DNA of 64,000 bases from Haloglomus halophilum. GTDB lineage: Archaea; Halobacteriota; Halobacteria; Halobacteriales; Haloarculaceae. A model generated the notes under the pieces. That model was not told the DNA's origin. It was given only the letters and a program-made list of their open reading frames with translations, and ran no database searches. The translations under genes were made by a program, and so were the position numbers. Numbering within the stretch: the first letter of the stretch is position 1; each line of letters opens with the position of its first letter. The DNA lies in NCBI RefSeq assembly GCF_024298885.1, contig NZ_CP101166.1, positions 3,099,149 through 3,163,148 on the forward strand. Direction: 5' to 3'. Shown here piece by piece: positions 6,614-45,753 of this stretch.

Positions 6614-7300
6614 TTACCCGGATATGTTGCCAATGGTACTGTAGGTGAAAAGGAAAACCACGGCGAAAAGTGCTAATCCAAGCGCCTTTACTAGTGAAAC
6701 CCAGAAGTTCAGTCCCTTCCCCTCGGTCAGTTCCCAATGAGCATATGGGAATAACCGATACCGATAGGCGGTACTGACTAAGGCAACCATGAAAATGAAG
6801 AATTTTATATATAATCCGGGGATGCGTCGTTCGGCAGGGTAGAATATCCCGAGAGGAGCGATAAGGAGAAAATAGTGGCCAGCGATAACTGAGAATATGA
6901 TTGCTAACGGAGCCATATACCCATGACCACTCAAATATGTTCGAAATCTGTTCTTTCGTCTTTCCATGAATTGGCTGATTATCTCCTTGATACTTTCCCG
7001 CCATCGGGCTTCTCCTTTGAGGAGGAGTCTATGGCTATCCTGCCGGTCGCAGTTCCCGATTATCTTGCCTTCCCCTCTTTCCCCCTCAAACGAGAACTGA
7101 AACGAGGTTGTATATTCGGGTACCATTCCGTCGGACAAGAGGCCATTTACAGAATGATATGAATCTTCGAACCCGTTTGAATCGATAGTTATCTCAATTA
7201 TTGGGCTCTCGAGCGCATTTATGATACATTCTTCAAGCTTCCGAAGGTCCCTCGGTCGGAGAGCGACTGAGGGTAACTCAGTTCTCGTGATTTCCCCCAT
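6614..7300 (-). CDS. Hypothetical membrane protein, AT-rich
   Basis: 228 residues not recognised as a family. The first 120 residues look soluble (mixed alpha/beta with several charged stretches); about 125-225 hold three or four membrane helices (GYMAPLAIIFSVIAGHYFLL, IKFFIFMVALVSTA, LVKALGLALFAVVFLF). Codon use and GC are clearly lower than in neighbouring genes, with many A/T third positions, suggesting recent acquisition. It lies about 130 bp downstream of tRNA-Trp, a common integration site, but no copy of the tRNA 3' end was found beyond it. ATG 7300 is the first start. Confidence 0.7.
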   Translation of the reverse strand: MGEITRTELPSVALRPRDLRKLEECIINALESPIIEITIDSNGFEDSYHSVNGLLSDGMVPEYTTSFQFSFEGERGEGKIIGNCDRQDSHRLLLKGEARWRESIKEIISQFMERRKNRFRTYLSGHGYMAPLAIIFSVIAGHYFLLIAPLGIFYPAERRIPGLYIKFFIFMVALVSTAYRYRLFPYAHWELTEGKGLNFWVSLVKALGLALFAVVFLFTYSTIGNISG

Positions 7301-39182: not shown

Positions 39183-41915
39183 TCAGCGCCGGGCCCACTG
39201 GAGGAGTCGCCGGTAGAACGGGTCCGACTCCAGCGCCGCCGCGTCGCCCACGAGCGCGAGCGCCCGCTTCGTCCGTGTGAGTGCGACGTTCATCCGCCGG
39301 TGGTCCTCGAAGATGGGGCTCTCCACGTCGCCGGTGGCGACGAAGGAGACGACGATGACCTCCTTTGCCGACCCCTGGAACCGGTCGACGGTGTCGACGG
39401 CGACACCGGTGCCGTCGAGACGTTTGCCGATCTCGGCGACCTGCGCGCGGAAGGGTGCGATGACGCCGATGTCGGCGGGCGCGACGCCCGCGTCGAGGTA
39501 CGAGCGCACGGTATCGGCCACGGCGTCGGCCTCCGTCGGGTTCGTGTTCCCGACCTGCCGACCGCCCGGGTCCACGAAGGCGACGGCGTCGCGGAGCGAG
39601 TCGGGCAACCGTGACGTGTCCACCCCGTCGAGATTCTCGAGCCGCCGCCCTGCTACCTCGGGCGTCGCCGGGCGCAACTCGCCGTCGTAGAACTCCTCCG
39701 AGGAGAACCACTGGACCCGCTGGCACATCCGGTACTGGCGGTCCAGCATCACGCCCGCGTCGGGATAGGCGTCGATGAGCCGCTCGAACAGCGACTCCTG
39801 CAGGTCGTTCTCGGCGCGCACGACGGGCGGCAACTGCTGGTGGTCGCCGACGAGGACGAACCGGTCGGCGCGGTTCGTCGCGAGGAAGGTCCCCGGTTCG
39901 GTCAGCTGCCCGGCCTCGTCGACGACGGCCACGTCGAACTCGCGTGACTTCACCGCGCGTGACCCGCAAGAGGCCGTGGTCGCGGCAACGACCGGTGTCT
40001 CCTGCAGTTCGCGGGCCACCCGGTCCGGGTCACCCGTCTGGTCGAGCAGGTGGTCGTGCATGTCCGCCCGGACGCCCGACTTCGAGCCGACGCGGAGGAA
40101 GTCCTCGAACCCCTGGTCCCGGAGCGCCTCCAGTGCGTTGTCGACGGCGCGGTTGGTGAACGCCGACAGCAGGACGCGGTCGCCCCGCTCGACGAGCGCC
40201 CGGACGAGCGTCGCCAGCGTGTACGTCTTGCCCGTGCCCGGCGGCCCGTGGACGAGCGCGAAGTCCTCGGCGTTGAGCGCGAGGTTGACGGCCTCGTTCT
40301 GGGAGTCGTTGTTGTCGATGTGCGTCTCGTGGTCGTCGCGGAACTCCGGGTCGCGCCGCCCGAACAGCACGTCCTTGCGCTCGTCGTCGCCCGCGAGGAT
40401 GGCATCGTGGAGCGCGTTCAGCTGGCGGTCGACGGTCAGCTCCGAGGGGTAGACGTCCAGTCGGCGGACGTCGAGCGGCTCGTCGGCGGTCAGCACGATG
40501 TCGCCGTCCGTCCCACTCCCGAGTGACTCGACCCGCGCGAGTTCGGCCTTCGTCCGCGTGGGATGGCCCTCGCTGGCGAGGACGAGGTCGCCCTCGCGGA
40601 TCTTCGAGACGGCCTCGCTCGTCCGGCGGGCGCGGAGTTCCCACTGGCTCTCGGCCTCGCGCCACTCGCGGCCCGCGGGTTCGAGGTCGACGAGCGCGCG
40701 GTCGTCGTCGGCCCGCTCCTCGGCCGTCTGTTCCCAGAGCTTGCGGTACTCACGGTGGACCTCGCGGCGCTCTGCCTCGATGGCCCGGTAGAAGCGCTCG
40801 AAGTACGCCTGTTCCGCCTCGGCGACGGCGATGCCGGGAATCATCCCGGCCTTCGCCTCCTGTTCGAGTCGCCCGGCCACCGCCATGCAGGGGTCCTGTT
40901 CGAAGCAGTACTCGCACTTCGCGTTCGCCTCGTAGCCCGTTGGGACGGAGTGGTCGTACTCCATCGCGGCGAGGTGGTTGCGCTCGCGGAGGACGTACTC
41001 GGCGAACCCGCGGCCGATGGAGAAGTCCTTCGCGGGCGAGAGGTCGCCCGACTCCTCGTTGCGGTCGAGGGCGGCGTTCTTCGTGTAGATGAGCGTCCCC
41101 GTGTCGGGGATGGCCGCCGCGGTGTCCCCGCCGCCGCTGATGGGGGTTCCGTCCTCCTCGACCGCTCCGTCCATGTCTGCGTACTCACCCAGCATCAGCG
41201 CGTAGCAGGCCGCCTGCACCTTGTCCTGGAAGCGGGGTTCCCCCTTCGTGTTCTTCCCCGTCTTCAACTCGACGGGCGCCCCCCGGCGGACGGCGTCGGC
41301 CCGGCCCTTGATGCCGAACGTCTCGGAGACGAGCGTCTGCTCGGAGCGCCAGCTGTCGGTCTCGGTCAACGTCCCCTGCTCCAGCCAGGCCTGGATGGCC
41401 GCGGCGTTCGCCCGCACCTCCTCGGCCACCTCGTCGGGGTCGAGTCCGAGCAGGCCGATGTCGAGCGCGGCCGCCTCGACCTGCTTCTCGACGGCCTCGT
41501 CGAGGTCGCCGCCGCGAAGGAGGTCGCCGAACACCTCGTGGACGACGGTCCCCTTCACGACGGGGTACTTCAGCGGGACGCCCTGTAGCTTGTTCAGGTA
41601 GTACATCCGCGGACACTGGACCCAGGCGCGGATGCCCGTCACGTCAACGAGGAAGTCCGGCTCGACCACGACCCACGAGGTGGGGGTGGTGCTGTACTGC
41701 GTCTCGCCCTGCCACTCCTCGGTCTCGGCGTCCGTGACGAGCAGTTCCATGCCGGGTTCGAGGTAGTCGACGGTCTCGGCCCACTTGCGCCACAGCGTCA
41801 CCTGCGTCGGCGGCGCCGCGCCGCCCTCGGGGCGGACCGTCACCTCGGCGAGGTCGGTCCCGCCGCTCACCGTCCGCGTCTCGCCCACCTCGACGACCGG
41901 CCCCCGTACGTTCAC
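39183..41915 (-). CDS. Dna2-like SF1 helicase with Cas4-type nuclease domain
   Basis: 910 residues. N-terminal PD-(D/E)XK nuclease with DFLVDVTGIRAWVQCPRMYY, GTVVHEVFGD, VELKTGKN and the Fe-S cysteines CEYCFEQDPC; C-terminal SF1 helicase with HGPPGTGKTYTL (Walker A), VAVVDEAGQ (Walker B), GDHQQLPPV, VDRFQGSAKEV and NVALTRTKRAL. Expected to process flaps or broken ends during replication and repair. GTG at 41915 begins VNVRGPVVEVGE, the usual family start; a GTG at 41975 would add 20 residues. Confidence 0.87.
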   Translation of the reverse strand: MNVRGPVVEVGETRTVSGGTDLAEVTVRPEGGAAPPTQVTLWRKWAETVDYLEPGMELLVTDAETEEWQGETQYSTTPTSWVVVEPDFLVDVTGIRAWVQCPRMYYLNKLQGVPLKYPVVKGTVVHEVFGDLLRGGDLDEAVEKQVEAAALDIGLLGLDPDEVAEEVRANAAAIQAWLEQGTLTETDSWRSEQTLVSETFGIKGRADAVRRGAPVELKTGKNTKGEPRFQDKVQAACYALMLGEYADMDGAVEEDGTPISGGGDTAAAIPDTGTLIYTKNAALDRNEESGDLSPAKDFSIGRGFAEYVLRERNHLAAMEYDHSVPTGYEANAKCEYCFEQDPCMAVAGRLEQEAKAGMIPGIAVAEAEQAYFERFYRAIEAERREVHREYRKLWEQTAEERADDDRALVDLEPAGREWREAESQWELRARRTSEAVSKIREGDLVLASEGHPTRTKAELARVESLGSGTDGDIVLTADEPLDVRRLDVYPSELTVDRQLNALHDAILAGDDERKDVLFGRRDPEFRDDHETHIDNNDSQNEAVNLALNAEDFALVHGPPGTGKTYTLATLVRALVERGDRVLLSAFTNRAVDNALEALRDQGFEDFLRVGSKSGVRADMHDHLLDQTGDPDRVARELQETPVVAATTASCGSRAVKSREFDVAVVDEAGQLTEPGTFLATNRADRFVLVGDHQQLPPVVRAENDLQESLFERLIDAYPDAGVMLDRQYRMCQRVQWFSSEEFYDGELRPATPEVAGRRLENLDGVDTSRLPDSLRDAVAFVDPGGRQVGNTNPTEADAVADTVRSYLDAGVAPADIGVIAPFRAQVAEIGKRLDGTGVAVDTVDRFQGSAKEVIVVSFVATGDVESPIFEDHRRMNVALTRTKRALALVGDAAALESDPFYRRLLQWARR

Positions 41916-42016
41916 AGCCGTCCCTGTGCCGTCGGGGGAAAGAGCGTATCGGTCAGCCGGACACTCGGAAGTCACGGCGCACGAAACGTTTTCAGTGAAA
42001 GCAAAGTACAGTGGGT

Positions 42017-42850
42017 ATGGCCGCACTCGAGCACGAGTTCTCCCTGGATGGGATGCTGGTATTTAATGGTCTCTACGAATGCCGGGTCCCGAATGAACTC
42101 GACTTCGAAACCGTTCTGCTCTCTCTTCCCGAGTACGAGGAGGGCACCCAAGAAGACCCGGGTGACGGATTCACCCGTCTCGCTCTCGACAGTGCATTGA
42201 GTTCTCGAAGGGATGTCGAGGAGGAATTAGGGGAAGAGTTGCGTGAGGTCGACCACATCCGTTACGTAGCTGAACAGTATGAGAGGACGGTTGCTGAGGT
42301 TGACGGCGAACGCCGTGCGGTATCGGTTCCATCCCAAAGACGGGTTGATCTCCACTGGCGTTTTCCGGACTTCCTTGCTGCTAGAGGTAGCCGTGAGGAC
42401 ACGAAGCAGGCAGTTAGCACTCTACAGAAGGAACTGGGTGGCGATTTTGGATTTCTGAAGCTGGAATTTGACAGTCACTTCCTCCAACAGTTATTCGAAG
42501 AGATGGAACCGGTGCCGGGGCCCCTACGTCTCGAACGGATCACGGAGGTGGACCTCCGCTCAACCTCGGGTAAATTTGGTCAATTCAACCGGGTCTCCAC
42601 AGAAGGAAAATCTCTCGACAGGAGTGATATCATCAGTAGGCTATCCAACGAGCATGAAATTGAGAGTCTCGGCGGGGTGTTCGAGCTTGAGGGACACGAG
42701 ATTCATGCAACGGTGTCGACGAACGGGCGAATCCATGTTCGGGCCTCCGGTGACATTCAGCATCGAGACGATTACGGCCGAATATTCCTTGCGCTTGGTT
42801 TCCTGAATCGCTTCATCGAGACGTATCGTCACTGGAAATCTGGCAAATGA
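42017..42850 (+). CDS. Unknown protein, first gene of AlbA_2 unit
   Basis: 277 residues, not recognised. Soluble, charged, with a central segment (about 95-150, VDLHWRFPDFLAARGSREDTKQAV) and a C-terminal beta-rich part with EGHEIHATVSTNGRIHVRASGDIQ, ending in a helix ETYRHWK. GC and codon use are below the chromosomal norm, suggesting transfer. Its stop overlaps the start of the AlbA_2 gene by 4 bases, so the two products are made together. It starts 100 bp from the divergent Dna2-like gene. Confidence 0.75.
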   Translation: MAALEHEFSLDGMLVFNGLYECRVPNELDFETVLLSLPEYEEGTQEDPGDGFTRLALDSALSSRRDVEEELGEELREVDHIRYVAEQYERTVAEVDGERRAVSVPSQRRVDLHWRFPDFLAARGSREDTKQAVSTLQKELGGDFGFLKLEFDSHFLQQLFEEMEPVPGPLRLERITEVDLRSTSGKFGQFNRVSTEGKSLDRSDIISRLSNEHEIESLGGVFELEGHEIHATVSTNGRIHVRASGDIQHRDDYGRIFLALGFLNRFIETYRHWKSGK

Positions 42851-43287
42851 GCGGGGAAGAGGACCACGAACTCGAAATCATCGGGATGACTGTCAAGGAG
42901 GCGATTGATGCTGGGGAATCTCAGTCAATAGAGTACAAGCGTGAGATCAACGACGCGAGTGATATCGCGAAAGAGGTCGTTGCTCTAAGTAACAATGGTG
43001 GTGGGACCGTGTTCGTCGGTGTCAATGACGACGGAACCGTAGCCGGAATAGAGCGTCCGAAGGAAGCGGGTGAGCGGATTGCCGGAGTTCTGCAAGATAT
43101 TCAGTCACCACCTAATTACGATATTCTGGAACTCGAAGTTCAGGATGAGTCGATAATCTCGATTATCGTACCTAACTATCCACACTTTCCCCTCGCCTAT
43201 GACTACAAATTCTACCAGCGCCGCGGAACTACGAAACAGAAGCTCACCCCTCCCGAGGTCTGGGAGCTGATGCCAGACAGGAACTGA
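42847..43287 (+). CDS. AlbA_2 (Schlafen-type) domain protein
   Basis: 146 residues, essentially the stand-alone AlbA_2 domain: ESQSIEYKREIND, DIAKEVVALSNNGGGTVFVGVNDDGTVAGI and the end FYQRRGTTKQKLTPPEVWEL. The family covers ATP- or nucleic-acid-binding regulators and Schlafen RNases; the conserved acid-acid-Lys (E-x-E-Y-K) set is present, so nuclease activity is possible but unproven. ATG overlaps the upstream stop (ATGA). Lower GC than its neighbours. It lies between a DNA-end-processing helicase and ordinary genes. Confidence 0.85.
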   Translation: MSGEEDHELEIIGMTVKEAIDAGESQSIEYKREINDASDIAKEVVALSNNGGGTVFVGVNDDGTVAGIERPKEAGERIAGVLQDIQSPPNYDILELEVQDESIISIIVPNYPHFPLAYDYKFYQRRGTTKQKLTPPEVWELMPDRN

Positions 43288-43350
43288 GGTGGGTCTCTAA
43301 GAGAACCACGGACGACACGCTCTTGCCGCCGCGCCCCAGACCACCGAACC

Positions 43351-43902
43351 ATGCGCGTGCGCGACTGGCAGGACATCGTCGAGGAGGTGGTCGACTCGGG
43401 GGCCGACCCGGACGGCTGGCGTGCGGTCGCCGGCGACCGCCGTGGGGGCCTCGGCGAGGACATGTTCATCGGCCATCCGTCGGCGGGCGTCTTCCAGCTC
43501 AAGACGTACGCCAGGAACCCGTTCGACGTGAAGGGCGTCGGGAGCGAGGTGGCCCGCCGCATCGACGACGACCTCGAACCGCTGTTCCCGGACCGTGACC
43601 ATGACGGCCGGTTCGGCGTCCAGTCGCGCCCCGAGGACGAGGACGCCGCGGCCGAGTCCGCGAAGCGACTGGAGGAGGTGCTGAAGACCCACGCCGACGC
43701 GCCGACGACGGGTGACGCGCTGTTCGAGGATGTGATGGACGCGCTCGACTCGCCTGCGTTCGGCCCGATGGAGTACGAGTTCGACGGCCGGCCCGAGGAG
43801 ATGGACGACCTCTCGGAGACGTTCGAGGAGGCCGAGGAGCTGCTGTCGACGGAACTGGACGACCTCATCGAGGAGGACGGGGTCGGCCGCGGCTTCGAGT
43901 AG
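43351..43902 (+). CDS. Conserved haloarchaeal hypothetical protein
   Basis: 183 residues. Conserved-looking block RGGLGEDMFIGHPSAGVFQLKTYARNPF, then VGSEVARRIDDDLEPLFPDRD; the C-terminal 50 residues are acidic and helical. No family function recognised. High GC, normal codons, so it belongs to the backbone and marks the right edge of the lower-GC unit. Confidence 0.75.
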   Translation: MRVRDWQDIVEEVVDSGADPDGWRAVAGDRRGGLGEDMFIGHPSAGVFQLKTYARNPFDVKGVGSEVARRIDDDLEPLFPDRDHDGRFGVQSRPEDEDAAAESAKRLEEVLKTHADAPTTGDALFEDVMDALDSPAFGPMEYEFDGRPEEMDDLSETFEEAEELLSTELDDLIEEDGVGRGFE

Positions 43903-43961: not shown

Positions 43962-44609
43962 ATGCGCTTCGACAGGGACGACGACGGGGCACGGCGGGTG
44001 GCGACGCTGGACATCGAGACCACCCACTACGACGCGGCGAAGGGCGAGGTGGTCGCGGTCGGCGTCGGCGTCCACGAGTTCGGGACGCCCGGCTCGGACG
44101 CCGTGTACGACTGCGTCCTCCGCGAGGGGGACGACGAGCCGGCCGTCATCCGCGACGCGCTCGACCGGCTGGCCTCGTACGGGGCCGACCGGCTCGTCAC
44201 GTACAACGGCGCCGAGTTCGATATCCCCTTCCTGCACGACCGGCTGCGGGTCCACGACACCGACCCGGTCGCGCTCCCACCCGTCGACCACCTCGACCTC
44301 TACGCCGACCGGAAGCGACGCGCGGACGAGACCGGCCGGAAGTGGCCGAGTCTGGAGGAGTGTGTCGCGGCCTACGACGCCACTCCAGCCGAGACGCACT
44401 GGCGGGGGGAGCCGGTGACGAACAGCCGCTTCGGCGAGGAACTCGGCCCGGAGTACCTCGACGCCGTCCGGGCCGGAGACGGCACCGACCTCCGTGCGGT
44501 CGTCGAACACTACCTCCGGAGCGACCTCGAGAACAACTTCCTCGTCTACTACGGGGACGTGGGGACACCGTTCGAGCCGGCGTTCGCGGGAACGCGACGG
44601 GAGTTCTGA
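43962..44609 (+). CDS. RNase H-like 3'-5' exonuclease family protein
   Basis: 215 residues. Exo I motif TLDIETTHYD, Exo II YNGAEFDIPFLHDRL and later Asp residues (YLRSDLENN) fit the DnaQ/YprB-like RNase H exonuclease superfamily. It likely trims DNA or RNA 3' ends. The middle DLYADRKRRADETGRKWPSLEE is a variation seen in haloarchaeal members. Not fused to a polymerase or helicase. Confidence 0.8.
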   Translation: MRFDRDDDGARRVATLDIETTHYDAAKGEVVAVGVGVHEFGTPGSDAVYDCVLREGDDEPAVIRDALDRLASYGADRLVTYNGAEFDIPFLHDRLRVHDTDPVALPPVDHLDLYADRKRRADETGRKWPSLEECVAAYDATPAETHWRGEPVTNSRFGEELGPEYLDAVRAGDGTDLRAVVEHYLRSDLENNFLVYYGDVGTPFEPAFAGTRREF

Positions 44610-44678: not shown

Positions 44679-45710
44679 CTATCTACTATCTCTCCCTTCC
44701 GATTCGCCGCTGTCGTCTGCGGGGACCACCTCTTCCGCGGGGTCCCGCTCCTCTGCCGGGCCCATCCCCATCTCGATTCCATCGATTCCACGCCCCTTCT
44801 CGTCGTATCGACCCGGGTCCGGACCGCCGTCGTCAGCCGGTGGCTGGGGGCCGGCGCTCGCCTCGCCGACCCGGTGCCGGACGAACGCCATCGTGGCGGC
44901 GTTCAGCGCGAGGCCCACGGGCGCGGCGACGAGCGCCGTCAGGAGGATACTGGGCAGCCCCGCCGAGAACGCCACCGAGGAGAGCGGCACCGAGCAGACC
45001 GCCACGAGGGCGGCGTAGGCCAGTGCGAAGACCACGTAGTCCGCCGTGAGCGCGATTCTGGCACCGAGCCGGAACGCCCGGCGCGGGCCGAGGTCCGCGG
45101 CGACACCCGCGTAGACCCCGGGTGCAAGCAGGTAGTAGCCGACGAGCGCCGCGACGAACACCGGAACGAACAGCGCGGTGGCGATGCCCCCGGCTGCGAG
45201 GATTCCACCGCCGAGGACCAGCAGGACCAGCAGGAAGCAGACCTGGAGCGCGGCGAACGCGAGCGTCACGGGAGCGTACCGGCGCAGGTTCTCCACCGGG
45301 TCGCCGGACCGTCCCGCCAGCGCGTCGTCGATGGACCCGAGGTAGATGGCGGTCAGGAGGCCGACGAGGAGCAGGCTCCCGCCCGCGACACCTATCCCGG
45401 TGACGAGGAGTTCCGGCTGGTTCGCGACGGCGGTGCTGGAGTAGCCGAACACGGATACTCCCGACTCGGTCGGCGCGTTCAGGAACGTCCAGACCCCGGC
45501 GACCGGCGTCGGGAGGCCGAAGTTTATCTGCATCGTCACGTCGGCACGCGCGGCGCGTTCGAGCTGGTCGACCGACAGGAGGCCGGCGACGAGCGGGACG
45601 AGCGCGAGCCACGGGCGGCTGGCCAGTACGTCCACTCCGGCGGAGAAGTACGACATCGTGGACGGGGAACGGTGGCCGTCGCGGCTGTCGGTGGAGGAGG
45701 GCGTCGACAT
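44679..45710 (-). CDS. Polytopic membrane protein
   Basis: 343 residues with six hydrophobic helices between about 30 and 285 and an acidic, Pro/Gly-rich C-terminal tail. Sections such as GRSGDPVENLRRYAPVTLAFAALQ and LGPRRAFRLGARIALTADYVVFALAYA recall haloarchaeal DUF7847-like integral membrane proteins, but the match is not firm. ATG at 45710 gives MSTPSS. Confidence 0.7.
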   Translation of the reverse strand: MSTPSSTDSRDGHRSPSTMSYFSAGVDVLASRPWLALVPLVAGLLSVDQLERAARADVTMQINFGLPTPVAGVWTFLNAPTESGVSVFGYSSTAVANQPELLVTGIGVAGGSLLLVGLLTAIYLGSIDDALAGRSGDPVENLRRYAPVTLAFAALQVCFLLVLLVLGGGILAAGGIATALFVPVFVAALVGYYLLAPGVYAGVAADLGPRRAFRLGARIALTADYVVFALAYAALVAVCSVPLSSVAFSAGLPSILLTALVAAPVGLALNAATMAFVRHRVGEASAGPQPPADDGGPDPGRYDEKGRGIDGIEMGMGPAEERDPAEEVVPADDSGESEGRDSR

Positions 45711-45753
45711 CACGCGGAGGCTGCACGTCGGCGCACTTCAACCGGACGGAGGC

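Follow-up and report, generated by a model that had tools for sequence, protein, structure and literature searches.

What is a pair of small, GC-poor genes doing in the DNA of Haloglomus halophilum, and is it, as the first-pass annotation proposed, reminiscent of a toxin-antitoxin or defence pair? The window, by which we mean the whole stretch of 64,000 nucleotides that was analysed, holds the two genes, here called A and B, at the positions collected in Table 1. It is certain that this foreign pair with an AlbA_2 domain as its second gene is real. The two reading frames and their four-base overlap stand exactly as first described, and the same overlap is found in the coordinates of the relatives L031, L038 and L044; judging from the sequence, the pair is probably translationally coupled. 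Its departure from the neighbouring composition holds as well, with a GC of 0.538 in A and 0.515 in B against 0.705 and 0.701 in the two flanking genes and 0.687 in the window, and only 0.7% of stretches of 1271 bases are as GC-poor as the pair. Elsewhere in the window, at 6614-7126 on the minus strand, the lowest-GC stretch of all contains a further GC-poor gene of 170 aa (GC 0.47) that looks hydrophobic in places by eye; it is likely a second insertion, unrelated to the A-B pair as far as seen.

Table 1. Positions in the window of the A-B pair, its sequence features and its host borders.
Feature	Position	Strand	Description
Host Dna2/Cas4-like helicase-nuclease, left border	39183..41960	-	Not part of the unit; start codon uncertain
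Inserted cassette	~41963..43306		About 1344 bases, GC 0.53; each end placed to within some 10 bases; site empty in three same-genus genomes
Gene A	42017..42850	+	277 aa, ATG start; predicted RdgC/RexA/CENP-L-type fold; proposed nucleic-acid-binding sensor
ATGA overlap, A stop / B start	42847..42850	+	Seen in the sequence; putative translational coupling
Gene B	42847..43287	+	146 aa, ATG start; single AlbA_2 (Schlafen) domain, PF04326 E 2.4e-22; proposed effector
ExxxxExK codons of B (E24, E29, K31)	42916..42939	+	Motif definition from the available part of PMC12215978
Host gene, right border	43351..43902	+	183 aa, function not assigned; not part of the unit

The cassette contains A and B only, with no mobility gene. 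The flanking genes are directly adjacent in each of the three remaining genomes of the genus, about 72 bases apart, the gaps between the matches being some 50 to 75 bases, and the helicase-nuclease (Dna2 PF08696, E 8.8e-17, with AAA_11/AAA_12) is kept there at 89-98% identity beside the gene that in the window comes after B; in G389 the match to this right-hand gene covers its first 30 residues only, at 73%. As the flanks adjoin each other without the pair, the helicase-nuclease is a bystander that marks only the insertion site. The annotation was thus correct that a Dna2/Cas4-like gene adjoins the pair, and a functional link between the two is rejected, the neighbour being a host gene next to a site that is empty in the genus. 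A GTG start at 42026, with the helicase overlapping A, is likewise unsupported, since the matches of relatives begin only at residue 20-24. In the window itself the pair has no known defence gene beside it. Near the cassette, at 43962-44609 on the plus strand, lies an RNase_H_2 / PolB-exonuclease-like gene which is taken as a host gene.

The second gene had been read as a bare AlbA_2 domain, and indeed it scores 80.1 bits against PF04326, well over the curated cut-off of 25.3. It carries E24-S-Q-S-I-E29-Y-K31, a complete ExxxxExK, the motif by which the catalytic site of SLFN14 is defined in the available part of PMC12215978; for SLFN13, E205 and E210 are described as needed above all in the accessible text of PMC5862951. 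Family and motif are therefore common to B and the Schlafen (SLFN11-14) core nucleases, which differ in being two-lobed and pseudo-dimeric, whereas B is a single 118-column domain in 146 aa; a homodimer of B could stand in place of the two-lobed core. Among PDB sequences B matches SLFN12 and SLFN5 only at E 0.4-0.8. Within the 391 genomes of the class, 17 hold 18 AlbA_2 matches to B at E 1e-8; each of the six with frames under 200 aa, B itself included, sits beside an A, and none of the 12 with longer frames does so directly, the regions of all 12 having been read for A (those of L138 and L143 in shortened form). One of the longer-frame matches (G123) lies about 8 kb from an A unit. At L047 16981-18729, some 8 kb away from two A units, lies a 582-aa protein whose C-terminal AlbA_2 domain has its ExxxxExK intact.

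The first gene was said to belong to no recognised family, and by sequence this holds: no Pfam family matches up to E 1, PADLOC and NCBIfam hold no relatives, PHROGs gives one unconvincing match at E 0.33, and the family profile finds nothing among PDB sequences up to E 5, RdgC included. The predicted model, however, is RdgC-like. AlphaFold, given window A with eight relatives, returns a model (pLDDT 80.7, pTM 0.80) whose best PDB match is RdgC, with a Foldseek E of 9.2e-9 at probability 1.00, and VIA-align superposes it at Z 14.7 and rmsd 5.2 over 235 of 277 residues, far above the unrelated entries. The overall fold is thus common to A and E. coli RdgC, with no sequence-family match between them; RdgC is known as a lone gene of bacteria, whereas A leads rows of genes. 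The next fold matches are kinetochore proteins, CENP-L/Iml3 at Z about 8 to 9 and then CENP-N at 6.6. The match to RexA is weak (Z 4.7, rmsd 13.1) and the halves of TBP reach about 4 in the fold lists, neither of which is sufficient alone for a claim about the fold. Among the viral models of BFVD, the named leading matches are mostly phage RdgC proteins. On this modelling A very likely has the RdgC fold. Alignments show that window A lacks the C-terminal 45 or so residues present in its c1- and AlbA_2-type relatives (see below for these types); c8-type A proteins are mostly without that end too, with their partner complete, and L046 has it.

Single-sequence search finds A in 34 of the 391 class genomes and profile search in 35, spread over 24 of 86 genera; a draw across the phylum gives 8 of 294, among which G594 (E 1e-6) alone falls outside the order. 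A is present in 10 of 146 genomes of the taxonomic family and in none of the three other genomes of the genus, a distribution so sparse that A is not a housekeeping family, and that candidate is rejected. We fetched 35 regions from the 33 other genomes of the single-sequence search (G214, a profile-only match, falls outside this set), called their genes with a codon-based script of our own and clustered the proteins. Counting the window, 45 copies of A are available. On the same strand, 28 of them are followed by c1 (about 212 aa), 8, the window copy among them, by AlbA_2, and 7 by c8 (about 205 aa); the two copies with none of these, L054 and L058, are cases in which a second A comes after an A-c1-membrane unit. 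Two copies of A are found in 9 of the 35 regions, and five of the eight AlbA_2-type units stand beside a c1-type unit. In RefSeq plasmid records of Halobaculum roseum and Haladaptatus halobius three genes in a row, with lengths as expected, are each labelled "hypothetical protein"; the former row is the L033 locus and the latter is independent, so two units are plasmid-borne. In the Haladaptatus row, order and length suggest that the second and third genes are c1 and c3. At L131 5879-7987, in the genome outside the order, the A-like protein comes after a 195-aa protein and an N-terminally hydrophobic one, and a putative type I restriction gene adjoins them.

When the partner labels, four in all, are mapped on a tree built from the 45 A proteins, 3 changes suffice, the minimum, against a shuffled mean of 16.0 with none of 200 shuffles as low; each label alone needs 1-2. 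Window A sits on a long end branch of 1.59; its nearest rows by path are the AlbA_2-type L031 and L038, in a placement without starred support.

This census bears directly on the toxin-antitoxin reading, in which B would be a Schlafen-type RNase toxin that A silences, A also repressing the operon promoter, so that the cell is addicted or loss of A lets the toxin act. A mobile cassette with two short, overlapping genes, an intact ExxxxExK in B and the predicted DNA-binding type of fold in A are all as it would have them. However, co-occurrence runs one way: all six short-frame AlbA_2 matches to B adjoin A, and of the 45 copies of A 37 have no AlbA_2 gene behind them, which makes A the fixed element and AlbA_2 one choice among three partners. 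Moreover, the motif is lost in all six testable A-linked AlbA_2 relatives, which keep the second E alone; a seventh (L048 484-816) lacks its N-terminal part, is preceded by a frame that holds stops and is probably a broken copy. With A kept where AlbA_2 is missing, and AlbA_2 kept where the motif is missing, A is not the dedicated antitoxin of an AlbA_2 toxin, and the more constant companion of A is a membrane protein. We consider the toxin-antitoxin reading unlikely.

The membrane companions are of several kinds. Clusters c3, c8, c16, c45 and c52 form one membrane-protein superfamily (hhalign 70-98% for seven pairs), and a Kyte-Doolittle scan predicts at least one helix in 28 of their 32 members (c3 14/18, c16 3/3, c45 2/2, c52 2/2, c8 7/7) and none in A (0/45), the AlbA_2 cluster (0/9) or c1 (0/28). 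A helix-bearing third gene is found in 25 of the 28 c1-type units; in the remaining three (L032, L059 and L062) the third gene is small and no helix is predicted in it. The third partner type, c8, is itself a predicted two-helix membrane protein. Apart from the window, every AlbA_2-type unit (7/7) encodes a protein of c9 type with a predicted helix at its C-terminal end, five assigned by clustering and two more by profile (E 2e-28 and 2e-16). None of the window's frames yields a homologue of c9, c3, c8 or c1, and no open reading frame with a predicted helix lies next to the pair, the nearest being the host gene at 44679-45713 and an antisense frame inside the helicase. A very likely heads a modular haloarchaeal family with membrane partners, and this family is undescribed so far.

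The c1 partner repeats the theme of A. Its fold, predicted from six sequences (pLDDT 74.0, pTM 0.75), matches RdgC by Foldseek at E 2.5e-5 and probability 1.00; by VIA-align it gives Z 8.7 with Iml3, 8.3 with RdgC and 7.5 with CENP-N, values near the tool's chance-warning level, so that the RdgC-fold assignment of c1 leans on Foldseek. A and c1 have no sequence similarity (hhalign probability 0.39) and both match the RdgC fold, which indicates that the units are built around RdgC-type folds. Two such proteins encoded side by side recall the Iml3-Chl4 heterodimer, as far as genes and predicted folds go; the likeness of A and c1 to kinetochore CENP-L/Iml3 and CENP-N/Chl4 is distant, and c1 is absent from the window. 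Ten of the 28 c1-type units (L032, L038, L041, L043, L045, L046, L051, L055, L059 and L062) begin with a further protein, c5 (about 225 aa), ahead of A; the C-terminal pattern of c5 resembles A and c1 by eye, and profile searches gave no confirmation of a relationship to either.

A second alternative takes the fold at face value: the pair would be an RdgC-like accessory to the DNA metabolism of mobile DNA, A modulating recombination as RdgC restrains RecA and B being a nucleic-acid-binding regulator, with no role in immunity. The first place of RdgC among the fold matches, the phage RdgC proteins in BFVD and the two plasmid-borne units agree with this. However, RdgC is not known to work with a dedicated membrane partner, whereas most A units have one, and some units adjoin Shedu and restriction genes, so this too appears improbable.

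A dedicated membrane partner next to an RdgC-type protein is the arrangement of the Rex systems. RexA has been related to RdgC at a Dali Z of 4.4, with IML3 and CHL4 as further relatives, and has been shown to bind DNA non-specifically, according to the available part of PMC11077077. RexA of Pseudomonas putida triggers a membrane effector, five RexAB-like systems are counted to date, and those named in this 2026 paper are phage- or prophage-encoded, as stated in the accessible part of PMC12894663. Compared with RexA-RexB of lambda and RexAB of the P. putida prophage P1, A has the same predicted RdgC-type fold in the first protein, and the family at large has a membrane protein encoded adjacent, as most relatives do. 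The window pair, in contrast, lacks that membrane effector, is archaeal, has AlbA_2 in the partner's place (c1 in relatives) and is a two-gene insertion without prophage genes and hence without a CI-like repressor; nor is there sequence similarity between RexAB and A in Pfam, PHROGs, PADLOC or PDB profile searches. It is therefore not a member of RexAB. No archaeal RdgC/RexA system was found in the literature searched, and the words Rex, RdgC, Schlafen and AlbA are absent from the available part of the main text of an archaeal immunity survey (PMC12988326).

Individual relatives lie in a defence-like setting. The Halobaculum roseum unit has Shedu (SduA_C, E 4.7e-21) about 60 bases downstream and restriction genes upstream; MjaI-like restriction enzymes occur in L045 (E 1.9e-22) and L046 (by clustering), an EVE-AAA protein (McrB-like) adjoins the unit in L050, and the large protein adjacent to the G594 unit reads by eye as a type I restriction subunit. 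The MjaI-like genes lie at L045 15886-16530 and L046 8458-9105, beside A-c1-membrane units, in L046 between two A units. The other neighbours among the ten scanned are MCM, UDG-like, DUF4145 and DUF2971 proteins, the remaining four matching no family. A PADLOC scan at E 1e-10 gave 156 families with 133 neighbour proteins against 50 with 130 control proteins, which is only suggestive of a defence linkage: there are no per-protein counts, the controls include DISARM genes, and two of the 35 planned control regions do not exist. The defence setting is for this reason argued from the named examples only. The first-pass idea of a defence-like pair is thus borne out by the neighbourhoods of some relatives and not by the helicase-nuclease beside the window pair. 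No relatives were found in viral_contigs or in phage records.

Taken together, the RdgC match of A, the fold of c1, the partner type that tracks the A tree, the membrane companions, the Shedu case, the motif of B and the low GC with its empty site lead us to favour, tentatively, a mobile two-gene immunity cassette from a RexAB-like abortive-infection family, with A as its nucleic-acid sensor; the distant A protein of G594, with its adjacent membrane-like protein and putative type I restriction gene, gives this reading further support. For the A family as a whole, a Rex-like immune system is likely, by analogy, but unproved. A shared fold proves no function, and the weak similarity of A to RexA counts against the Rex-like reading.

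Under the Rex-like reading, A would, like RdgC and RexA, dimerise and clamp DNA without sequence preference, and would change shape on meeting a structure of DNA, or of DNA with protein, that arises in the course of a virus infection. In most relatives this change may activate the small two-helix membrane protein, much as RexA is thought to open RexB. The window copy of B is the only A-linked one seen with an intact motif and also the only one without a membrane gene (n = 1); alone among the A-linked AlbA_2 copies seen it looks, from its residues, able to cut RNA, and we infer from this single case that in the window variant the nuclease replaces the membrane effector. B would then be activated instead, tRNA or rRNA would be cut and translation stopped, and the infected cell would cease to grow before virus is made. 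More doubtful still is the broader proposal of an undescribed, mobile immune family in haloarchaea whose RdgC-fold clamps, either A alone or an A+c1 heterodimer of CENP-L/CENP-N kind, would recognise incoming nucleic acid and set off effectors that can be swapped for one another: a two-helix membrane protein or, as in the window, a Schlafen nuclease with its catalytic motif intact.

The absent membrane protein, the missing end of A and the long branch mean that the window copy may be decayed or repurposed, yet we regard it as quite improbable that it is a defunct remnant of a once-complete A-B-membrane unit, for both frames are open and correctly overlapping, the catalytic motif of B is complete, and the c8-type A proteins mostly lack the same C-terminus beside a complete partner.

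The family adds to the archaea a gene system of Rex-like general design that is unmatched in PADLOC and stands as "hypothetical protein" in two plasmid records. It offers a setting in which to ask how an RdgC-type clamp signals to an effector, and bears on how far effectors, be they a membrane protein or a Schlafen nuclease, are interchangeable. Two RdgC-fold proteins encoded side by side in an archaeon bear also, speculatively, on the origin of the CENP-L/CENP-N pair. If true, the reading with exchangeable effectors would unite in a single archaeal system the exclusion of Rex, the immunity of Schlafen proteins and the clamp fold known from the kinetochore.
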